Source: Tsuneonella rigui (GTDB lineage: Bacteria; Pseudomonadota; Alphaproteobacteria; Sphingomonadales; Sphingomonadaceae). Taken from it: 64,000 nt of DNA. Positions 61,193-64,000 of the stretch are shown piece by piece. How positions within the stretch are numbered: position 1 is the first letter of the stretch; each line of letters opens with the position of its first letter. Below the pieces are notes generated by a model. That model did no database searches. It saw only the letters and a program-made list of their open reading frames with translations, and was not told the origin of the DNA. Both the position numbers and the translations under genes were made by a program. The stretch spans positions 186,001-250,000 of the forward strand of contig NZ_RSEL01000013.1 of the NCBI RefSeq assembly GCF_003958625.1, in the 5' to 3' direction.

Positions 61193-61942
61193 ATGGCCGG
61201 AGAAATACTCGACAACAAGGGTCGCGGCGATGCGCATTGGTCGTGGCCCACGGTCCATCCCGAAGGGCGCAAGTATGCGCTGATCACCGCGGCCGCGAGC
61301 CTGGTCTGCGCGTTCCTGGCATGGGAAACGATCGCCTGGCCGCTCGCTTTCCTAACCCTCGGAGTGCTCGCCTTCTTCCGCGACCCCGAACGGGTGGTGC
61401 CGCAGGACGAGCGGATGATCGTCTCCCCTGCCGACGGGATGGTCTCGCTCATCTCGCAGGTCGAGCCCCCGGCCGAGCTGAAGATCGATGACGGCAGCGG
61501 ATCGCGCGGGCTGGCCGCCGGGCCGGTCACCCGAGTGTCGATTTTCATGTCGGTGTTCGACGTGCACATCAACCGCGCCCCGATCGGCGGCACGGTGCGC
61601 CGGGTGGTCTATATCCCGGGCAAGTTCGTCAACGCCGATCTCGACAAGGCGAGCGATGAGAACGAACGCCAGCACATCCTGATCGAGCGGGCCGACGGTA
61701 CCGCGATCGGGTTCACCCAGATCGCCGGTCTGGTCGCGCGGCGGATCGTGCCGTTCGTCAAGCCGGGCGACACCATCGCGGTCGGTCAGCGGGTCGGCCT
61801 GATCCGGTTCGGCAGCCGAGTCGATGTCTACCTGCCGGCGGGGACCGATCCGAAGGTGGTGCTCGGCCAGACGGTCGTGGCGGGCGAGACAGTGCTCGCA
61901 GAACTCGGCACCCAGAAGCTGATCGAAGGGGTCAACCAGTGA
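61193..61942 (+). CDS. psd: Phosphatidylserine decarboxylase (short type)
   Basis: A 249-aa proenzyme converting phosphatidylserine to phosphatidylethanolamine. One or two N-terminal TMs ([20 protein letters not shown]), [39 protein letters not shown] and the self-cleavage Gly207-Ser208 in [11 protein letters not shown], which yields the pyruvoyl group. This is the short (archaetidylserine-type) Psd found in alphaproteobacteria. It overlaps pssA by 4 nt (GTGA). Confidence 0.95.
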
Positions 61943-62793
61943 TCGAAGAACGCCCGCGCATCGGGCCGATGGCGGCTGAGGACGAGGTTCCGCTCGCCAA
62001 CCGCAAGGGCAATCGCGGCCTCGCCATGCGGGCGGTGGTGCCGAACGCGATCACGGCGGCAGCGATGTGCTCGGGCCTCACCGGCATCCGCTTCGCGATG
62101 GCGGGCATGTGGCGCGAGGCGGTGATCGCGGTGATCCTGGCAGGCGTGCTCGACGGGATCGACGGACGCATCGCGCGCCTGCTGCGCGCGCAGTCGCGCT
62201 TCGGGGCGGAGCTCGACAGCCTCGCCGATTCGCTGAGCTTCGGGACCGCGCCGGCGCTAATCCTGTTCCTGTGGTCGCTCAACGACCTCACTCGGCTTGG
62301 CTGGTTCGCGGCGCTCGCGTTCGCGGTGTGCGGCGCGCTGCGACTGGCGCGCTTCAACGCGCAGATCGATGTCAAGGAGCAGCCGCACAAATCGGCCGGC
62401 TTCCTCACCGGCGTGCCCGCGCCAGTCGGGGCGGGCCTCGCGTTCCTGCCGGTCTATCTGTGGCTGGCGACGGGCGAGCCGATCTTCCGCGATTCGCTGC
62501 TGGTCGCGCCGTGGACCGCGCTGATCGCGTTCCTGATGATCTCCAACGTCGCGACGCTGAGCTGGACGCTCATGCGCCCGCGCCGCGACGTGCGGCTGGG
62601 CGTGATCCTGGTGGTGGGGATGGTGTTCGCGGCGCTGTTGCTGGAGCCGTGGTGGACGCTGGTGGCGATCTGCCTCGGGTACCTGGCGCTGCTACCCTAT
62701 GCCTGGACCCGCTATGCGCGGATCAAGCGGCAGCGCGCAGCCGTTCCGGCGCTCGCACCCGCGACGGCCGAGCGACCGACCGTGCTGCTTTGA
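61939..62793 (+). CDS. pssA: CDP-diacylglycerol-serine O-phosphatidyltransferase
   Basis: A 284-aa integral membrane enzyme making phosphatidylserine, substrate of psd just upstream. The CDP-OH-P motif is [27 protein letters not shown]. Six to eight TMs; a C-terminal basic tail. GTG start coupled to psd. The 3' end overlaps the opposite-strand small membrane gene by 71 nt. Confidence 0.95.
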
Positions 62794-62998
62794 CTGGAGC
62801 CGCCCGCAGCGCCGGCATGCGCTGGGCGGTTTCGATATCGGCGAACTCGACCGTCACGCGGCGCACGGCGTCGATCCGCGCCAGATCGCCCCGCAGCAGC
62901 CGGAACGCGTTCCGGCCGCGAACGGCAGCATCGGCGAGGGTGACTGCACTGGCCAGCGCGATGGTGGCGAACAGTGCGACAAGCAGCGTGGCGATCAT
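62723..62998 (-). CDS. Small membrane protein with upstream LexA box
   Basis: A 91-aa protein with one N-terminal TM helix (residues 1-23, MIATLLVALFATIALASAVT) and a basic C-terminal domain ([56 protein letters not shown]). No family recognised. A canonical alphaproteobacterial SOS box (GAAC-N7-GAAC on this strand, 63096-63110) lies 98 bp upstream, and no other gene start is closer on this strand. It may be DNA-damage induced, like the small membrane division inhibitors SidA and DidA of Caulobacter; that is inference only. The 3' 71 nt overlap pssA. Confidence 0.7.
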   Translation of the reverse strand: MIATLLVALFATIALASAVTLADAAVRGRNAFRLLRGDLARIDAVRRVTVEFADIETAQRMPALRAAPVKAARSVARPSRVRAPERLRAAA

Positions 62999-63095
62999 TT
63001 CTCGAGACCCTCATTGGCCGGCACAACCGCGTGGAGCGACTGTGGACAGCTAGTGGAAAACTCCGAATCGGTTCTTGTTCCCGATACGAGACAAT

Positions 63096-63110
63096 GTTCT
63101 CTGTTTGTTC
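63096..63110. promoter_or_regulatory. LexA (SOS) box GTTC-N7-GTTC
   Basis: GTTCTCTGTTTGTTC is a perfect match to the alphaproteobacterial LexA operator GTTC-N7-GTTC. A related GTTC-N2-GTTC lies 25 bp to its left (63071-63080). The box is 98 bp upstream of the minus-strand small membrane gene and 223 bp before rpsB. In the 334-bp gap (62999-63332) it is the clearest regulatory site; a CCGCGG...CCGCGG hairpin (63274-63290) also precedes rpsB. Confidence 0.8.
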
Positions 63111-63332
63111 CACCGTGTCAAACGGTTTTCGCGACCGCCCGAATCTCACGCGCGACGAATTGATGGTGGATTTCCCGCATGCACCACGCTAAGGGGCCGC
63201 CCGTTCGCCGGACATCCAGCCGGGTGCCAGCGGGCAAATCCACATGGAGAGCGCCACATACCGGTGCCGTCTTCCGCGGGATCTCCGCGGCGGTTCCTGC
63301 TCTCCAGAGGCTCAACCGGAAAGGAATTACCT

Positions 63333-64000
63333 ATGGCGGCTCCTGTCGTCACCATGCAGCAATTGATCGAGGCCGGCGCGCACTTCGGCCACCAGACCCA
63401 CCGCTGGAACCCGCGGATGAAGCCGTACATCTTCGGCGCCCGCAACGGTGTGCACATCATCGATCTGTCGCAGACCGTGCCGCTGATGGCGCGCGCGCTC
63501 GATTTCATCCAGGACACCGTGCGTTCGGGCGGCAAGGTGCTGTTCGTCGGCACCAAGCGCCAGGCGCAGGAGCCGATCGCCGAGGCCGCGCGCCGTTCGG
63601 GCCAGCACTTCGTCAACCACCGCTGGCTGGGCGGCATGCTCACCAACTGGAAGACCATCTCGGGCTCGATCAAGCGCCTCAAGAGCCTCGAAGAGCAGCT
63701 CTCGGGCGACACTTCGGGCCTGACCAAGAAGGAAGTCCTCCAGCTCACCCGTGAGCGTGACAAGCTCGAGCTGTCGCTCGGCGGCATCCGCGACATGGGC
63801 GGCATCCCAGCGGTGATGTTCGTGATCGACGCCAACAAGGAAGACCTCGCGATCAAGGAAGCCGGCGTGCTCGGCATCCCGGTCGTCGCGGTGCTCGATT
63901 CGAACGTCGACCCCAGCGGCATCGCCTTCCCGATCCCGGGCAACGACGACGCCGCGCGCGCCGTCCGCCTGTATTGCGACGCGGTGGCCGAAGCCGCCTC
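63333..64000 (+). CDS. rpsB: Ribosomal protein uS2 (3' end beyond window)
   Basis: The first 222 codons of 30S protein S2: [73 protein letters not shown] and [28 protein letters not shown] precedes ATG 63333. tsf, usually next, lies outside the window. Confidence 0.98.

Follow-up and report, generated by a model that had tools for sequence, protein, structure and literature searches.

Close to the right-hand end of the window (the whole stretch of DNA analyzed, 64,000 nucleotides of Tsuneonella rigui), a 91-aa open reading frame (ORF) is flanked by two genes that served as synteny markers: a pssA-like gene, which overlaps its 3' end by 71 bp, and rpsB, which lies outside the unit described here (Table 1). 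The ORF starts with ATG and is preceded by a leader containing three repeats that resemble DnaA boxes and by a promoter that encloses a GTTC-N7-GTTC motif. Among 10 same-genus copies (its own included), the first 40 codon columns contained 598, 486, and 955 differences at codon positions 1, 2, and 3, respectively, and from this distribution the ORF looks coding.

Table 1. Features of the 91-aa ORF and its surroundings (positions within the window)
Feature	Position	Strand	Remarks
pssA-like phosphatidylserine synthase gene	61939..62793	+	Named by eye; convergent neighbor of the 91-aa ORF
91-aa ORF	62723..62998	-	Hydrophobic helix at the N terminus; contains the motif D-x3-R-G-R-N-A-x-R; basic tail with -RAAA as its end
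Shine-Dalgarno-like GAGGG	63008..63012	-	9 nt before the ATG; read from the sequence
Third, degenerate repeat CGCTCCACG	63030..63038	-	Part of an array with an 11-bp period; 4 mismatches to TTWTCCACA
Second DnaA-box-like repeat CTGTCCACA	63041..63049	-	2 mismatches
First DnaA-box-like repeat TTTTCCACT	63052..63060	-	1 mismatch; 2 bp from the second repeat
Extra GAAC half-sites GGGAACAAGAAC	63071..63082	-	Downstream of the operator
-10 element AACATT	63093..63098	-	17-bp spacing from TTGACA
LexA operator	63096..63110	-	GAACAAACAGAGAAC on the coding strand; GTTCTCTGTTTGTTC (GTTC-N7-GTTC) on the + strand
-35 element TTGACA	63116..63121	-	17-bp spacing to AACATT
Match to Rfam RF01815 (rpsB leader RNA)	63241..63330	+	30.6 bits, under the gathering threshold of 40; immediately upstream of rpsB
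rpsB	63333..64000	+	Divergent neighbor of the 91-aa ORF; runs off the window

The LexA operator and its conservation

The perfect GTTC-N7-GTTC on which the original prediction was built was confirmed in the sequence. It is placed in the spacer that separates the -35 and -10 elements and extends into the latter, and the sigma70 promoter that encloses it (TTGACA-17-AACATT) is directed toward the 91-aa ORF, with 97 bases between operator and ATG. By itself, the bare motif is no evidence for a LexA site, given that its count is at the chance level: it occurs once in the window (1.5 expected) and 71 times in the 2.86-Mb genome (37 plus 34 by strand), exactly the total of the backward control. What makes this operator more than a chance match is its conservation, together with the promoter, across homologous loci.

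A first protein search with the 91-aa ORF in 60 genomes gave matches in 15, its own included, with identities of 27 to 61%, indicating a fast-evolving protein. The alignment of 14 homologues was then used as the query against 397 genomes of the family and recovered homologues in 97 of them, belonging to 30 of 96 genera (own genome included), so that the orthologues on which the original prediction depended do exist. These 97 loci were picked by protein match alone and not by promoter. All of them nevertheless carried TTGAC-N4-7-GAAC-N7-GAAC upstream of the ORF, a pattern whose chance of occurring on one strand of a 390-bp stretch was estimated at ca. 0.5% from the genome motif count, and in 86 the spacer to AACANN was 17 bp. 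The neighborhood was conserved as well (pssA or psd, plus rpsB), with rpsB beside the ORF in 97/97 cases. Promoter orientation and conservation thus agree with the assignment of the operator to the 91-aa minus-strand ORF. The rpsB start lies 222 bp from the operator, and either a role in rpsB expression or a mere coincidence could be argued from this distance and from the chance frequency of the bare motif, but the promoter points away from rpsB and has been kept at every one of the 97 loci, which already contradicts both readings; we rejected the former and regard the pair as extremely improbable.

We also sampled 30 genomes without a protein match, one per genus. The box was still found upstream of rpsB in 21 of them (with TTGAC in 17), namely, in 20 of the 22 genomes with pssA adjacent versus 1 of the 8 without it. 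In all 21, the box precedes a small ORF whose start is hydrophobic, and 16 of these ORFs end in -AA; the ORFs were chosen by hydrophobicity, and the one in the genome lacking an adjacent pssA (G034) is doubtful. The remaining nine genomes had no box before rpsB, which shows that not every member of the family has the gene. A wider set of 119 nonidentical leader/ORF sets was derived from 146 rpsB/pssA loci after removal of three without a promoter match, one without an acceptable ORF (L135), and, for the rest, identical proteins. Many of the 146 owed their selection to the promoter pattern, and start codons were assigned with a hydrophobicity score; for the operator, the unbiased set is therefore that of the 97 protein-selected loci, which also served as the main set for counts of the -AA end.

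Searching with the promoter pattern alone (≤1 mismatch) gave matches in 211 of the 397 genomes, versus 7 hits for the reversed control. Of 30 loci returned, 20 were at the 91-aa gene; among the other 10, 8 were read, and 6 of these are immediately upstream of uvrA (identified by eye through its N terminus), one (L045) lies before a small hydrophobic ORF, and one (L063) gave no ORF. In the genome of the window, lexA has a box (GTTCCGCGTTCGTTC) 31 bp before its ATG. We fetched 20 of the 71 genomic box regions, chosen for promising spacers, and named five nearby proteins with NCBIfam: recA, radA, rmuC (below the cut-off), and two radical-SAM genes (PA0069 and TIGR03916). Most of the 71 boxes are probably chance matches. 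In Sphingopyxis granuli, lexA, recA, radA, dinG, and imuAB-dnaE2 are described as induced together, and the passages of Table 1 of that source covered here do not name the 91-aa gene (PMC6472365). With an operator at the promoter and with the genome's own lexA and recA carrying boxes, LexA control of the 91-aa gene is near certain, as judged from sequence and conservation.

Several side observations were made on LexA sites. Beyond the operator, the leader contains extra GAAC half-sites (Table 1); a GGAAC ca. 20 nt after the operator was almost unchanged across 12 aligned leaders, and in several relatives the locus has a second complete LexA box. The half-sites are possibly further LexA contacts. 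Elsewhere, a gene for a second LexA-like protein of ca. 217 aa (G000:C24:9244-10154; loci L075 and L212), matching TIGR00498 at 28 bits, below the cut-off, has a GTTC-N7-GTTC ca. 245 bp upstream and possibly encodes a prophage or accessory repressor. In Hyphomicrobiales/Bradyrhizobium, the promoter recurred before two groups of small ORFs, one of ca. 85 aa with an AWLRKLD-ECP-QVVLPR-like start (L095, L100, L119, L164, and L168) and the other of ca. 70 to 80 aa with an ALIVAND-like core (L093, L097, L099, and L141), both of which are candidate unnamed SOS genes.

DnaA-like repeats downstream of the operator

The three leader repeats, arranged as TTTTCCACT-AG-CTGTCCACA-GT-CGCTCCACG, have the order and spacing of a DnaA box array and a weak sequence. 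They fall inside the transcribed leader, ca. 27 to 57 bp beyond the predicted transcription start. We examined the leaders of the 97 protein-selected loci, each limited to the first 90 bases past the operator. Exact TTWTCCACA was present in 37 of them (opposite strand, 0; shuffles, 0.3), a site with ≤1 mismatch in 78 (0 and 4.15, respectively), and one with ≤2 mismatches in 86 (16 and 27); these shuffles leave the relatedness among the 97 uncorrected, and 19 leaders had no site at ≤1 mismatch. The median position of the box was 47 bp after the operator (range, 2 to 73). Spacings between TC(C/A)AC cores were concentrated at 11 bp (68 pairs) and 22 bp (37 pairs), versus single counts in shuffles, with two cores at the 11-bp spacing in 45 leaders and three in 23. 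At an 11-bp period, consecutive 9-mers are separated by 2 bp, and Escherichia coli DnaA prefers separations of 2 or 3 bp (PMC11317965).

The strict double box TTWTCCACA-N5-TCCACA was found at 32 sites in 30 of 199 family genomes, with 0 for the reversed control. The leader of the 91-aa gene accounted for 11 of the 32 (9 of the 30 sites read as loci plus 2 coinciding with protein matches). Six sites, in six genera, lie just upstream of dnaB (L213, L221, L227, L231, L239, and L240, confirmed by NCBIfam), and two more are probably at dnaB as well (L237 and L242, by eye), making a DnaA-dnaB control loop in sphingomonads possible. Three sites lie between hemE and ppsR, the position of the alphaproteobacterial origin, one at gyrB, and one at rpoN. 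Another four are in an iscS-like/parC region (checked with NCBIfam for L222 and L229 and by eye for L220 and L223), at least the L222 copy falling within an iscS-like reading frame, and the last four were matched to no named locus. Nine of 11 same-genus genomes had a double box with ≤1 mismatch, eight of them at this leader and the other one, G004, only elsewhere; none was found in G007 and G008. In the genome of the window, the first and second repeats are the sole match at ≤1 mismatch. At the family level, the double box has a spacing expected of members of the DnaA regulon; the window's copy is degenerate, with one mismatch to the double pattern. A chromosomal origin at the locus itself was rejected, as the GC skew of the window, which covers almost only its left side, showed no clear turn.

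The repeats are transcribed and fixed in strand, and the second and third of them overlap a local hairpin, as might be expected of an RNA element; the four double boxes without a named locus and the four in the iscS-like/parC region would also fit the site of a factor other than DnaA. Against an RNA element, the leader folds no better than its shuffles (z, 0.02), and across 12 sequences the RNAalifold covariation term was 0.04; of 10 pairs, one was compensated. An Rfam search of positions 62600 to 63500 (E ≤ 1) matched only the leader of rpsB itself, on the opposite strand. In addition, the same double box at dnaB, gyrB, and hemE/ppsR speaks for DnaA. An RNA element, rejected on fold and covariation, or a site for another factor is therefore improbable as an explanation of the repeats. 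Many of the other double boxes in the family are at replication loci, which could instead mean that the leader boxes mainly titrate or reactivate DnaA, in the manner of datA or DARS1, next to an SOS promoter and with little effect on the gene; DARS1, upstream of uvrB in E. coli, provides a precedent (PMC11317965, PMC6015884). Yet a fixed orientation and position within the transcribed leader suggests gene control, and the boxes are degenerate in the window's own genus, so that we consider such a titration site distinctly unlikely. From motif, spacing, and company, DnaA is likely to bind the leader boxes.

The protein and a proposed mechanism

Positional homologues are 65 to 111 aa long. All 119 of the wider set have a hydrophobic N-terminal stretch; in 108, the first 20 residues have a net charge of 0, and the remainder has a mean charge of +6.9 (range, -1 to +13). 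According to the positive-inside rule, a positively charged segment stays cytoplasmic, so the predicted topology is a single helix, uncharged at its outer end, with the basic tail in the cytoplasm. An AlphaFold model built from 25 sequences also predicted one helix (residues 2 to 60, confident to ca. 45 to 50) followed by a loose tail, so that the N-terminal helix and basic tail of the original prediction held over the homologues and in the model. D23, R27, A31, and the last A were invariant among 14 aligned homologues, in which the sequence of the tail was poorly conserved. The C terminus is -AA in 94 of the 97 protein-selected homologues and in 110 of the 119, compared with a background of 12/432 mechanically called ORFs of ≥200 aa (from 80 named loci) and 2/48 in the window. 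A C-terminal Ala-Ala is a ClpXP signal in CtrA, and the homologues share this feature of C-terminal ClpXP degron substrates; judging from sequence, the chances that it acts as a degron here are about equal either way. Over 14 members, searches against Pfam and NCBIfam gave scattered weak matches (best E values of 0.099 and 0.0092, respectively, each in one member), and those against PHROGs and PADLOC gave no match at E ≤ 0.01. The family fits no curated model of these collections convincingly and no named inhibitor; it is a new family, with an unusual putative double control, and a candidate member of a known functional class, the SOS-induced membrane division inhibitors, with which it shares an SOS operator and a single membrane helix.

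The mechanism that we propose would begin with LexA bound to the operator and keeping the promoter shut, until RecA-driven cleavage of LexA after DNA damage opened it. Operator and promoter are established by sequence and conservation, and we infer LexA binding from them. DnaA on the tandem leader boxes would act as a further regulator and, most likely, restrain output according to the state of replication initiation; both its binding and the sign of its effect are drawn by analogy from the E. coli genes uvrB, recN, and dinJ. Once made, the protein would insert into the inner membrane as one helix with a basic cytoplasmic tail and, by analogy with SidA, might block cytokinesis at a late stage, the FtsW/FtsI/FtsN step being the probable point of action. 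Its -AA end could then mark it for proteolysis by ClpXP or FtsH, allowing division to resume after repair.

That the protein inhibits division is an evenly balanced proposition, based on its likeness to known inhibitors. A LexA-controlled membrane protein with another action, such as a TisB-like growth-slowing peptide or a modulator of the envelope or of lipids acting beside pssA/psd, would also have a single hydrophobic helix and a basic tail and would suit the conserved pssA or psd plus rpsB neighborhood; moreover, the poorly conserved tail makes a specific protein partner not obvious. Fast evolution likewise counts against one tight partner contact being kept, for which it would be unusual. 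TisB, however, has 29 aa, and a protein of 65 to 111 aa with a helix to about residue 45 to 60 is larger; besides, a leader with neither an Rfam match nor a fold better than shuffles gives no sign of the structured leader of a type I toxin. We therefore hold an action away from division to be unlikely, if worth keeping in mind. An SOS-induced small membrane division inhibitor under LexA and DnaA control and turned over through its -AA end is our best explanation, and all of its parts together fall slightly short of an even chance.

This single gene of Erythrobacter-like bacteria, which occupies the same position in about 30 genera and probably in others, is a strong candidate for the division brake after damage. 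Should DnaA indeed gate it, the sensing of damage, the initiation of replication, and cytokinesis would be linked at a single promoter. Searching an open-licence library of papers, we found no account of a division stop after DNA damage in sphingomonads or Erythrobacteraceae and no description of the 91-aa gene. It is rather doubtful, although conceivable, that the SOS checkpoint of the Sphingomonadaceae as a whole consists of this unnamed membrane protein, gated by LexA and DnaA as two inputs, short-lived via -AA, and having taken over the role of SidA. As for the original prediction, its core, a real LexA operator of the 91-aa gene, stands, and the tandem DnaA-like boxes, the -AA end, and the chance frequency of the bare motif are additions to it.

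Comparison with known SOS and division systems

In Caulobacter, the sidA gene lies beside dnaE. The 91-aa protein resembles SidA in being small, alphaproteobacterial, LexA controlled (GTTC-N7-GTTC), and predicted to have a single inner-membrane helix. SidA is a 29-aa inner-membrane division inhibitor that acts on FtsW (PMC4211646), whereas the homologues described here are 65 to 111 aa and lie next to rpsB, the window's own protein being ca. 3 times longer than SidA, at rpsB/pssA, with a basic tail, an -AA end, and DnaA-like boxes in its leader. On the present evidence, the likeness is one of analogy. Before dnaE1 of the window's genome, we found neither a LexA box nor a SidA-like mini-ORF. 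At four loci of other alphaproteobacteria (L089, L096, L116, and L147), the same LexA promoter precedes a hydrophobic mini-ORF of 26 to 33 aa (by eye), sharing with the 91-aa gene this promoter architecture and a single hydrophobic helix. A DNA polymerase III alpha gene follows within ca. 300 bp in L089, L096, and L116 (by eye), and none was found within that distance in L147. These four are probable SidA-like genes outside Caulobacter. A dnaE1 without a SidA-like ORF here, and three other loci with one, is consistent with replacement of SidA by the 91-aa family.

DidA, the other Caulobacter inhibitor invoked in the original prediction, is also a small, damage-induced membrane division inhibitor, features that are here proposed for the 91-aa protein. 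Its listing as LexA controlled was wrong, since DidA is SOS independent and driven by DriD (PMC4211646), unlike the 91-aa gene with its LexA operator.

Outside the alphaproteobacteria, close parallels are Staphylococcus SosA and Bacillus YneA, which are SOS induced (as predicted here) and have one N-terminal membrane helix and a C-terminal tail linked to turnover; SosA, in addition, is fast evolving at a fixed locus. The SosA tail is extracellular and has been proposed to be cut by CtpA (PMC6851548), in contrast to the basic tail with an -AA end that is here predicted to be cytoplasmic. The LexA box also differs, being CGAACN4GTTCG for SosA/YneA (PMC9578287) and GTTC-N7-GTTC here.

With regard to the double control, the E. 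coli genes uvrB, recN, and dinJ, like the 91-aa gene with its putative DnaA sites, combine LexA and DnaA sites at one promoter. There, the two proteins repress together, and loss of both leads to elongated cells (PMC6015884). In those genes, the boxes for the two proteins overlap one another or are situated around the start sites, unlike the double DnaA-like box found here within a leader. The E. coli cases described in the same source are repair or toxin-antitoxin genes, whereas the gene with the putative double control here encodes a membrane protein.
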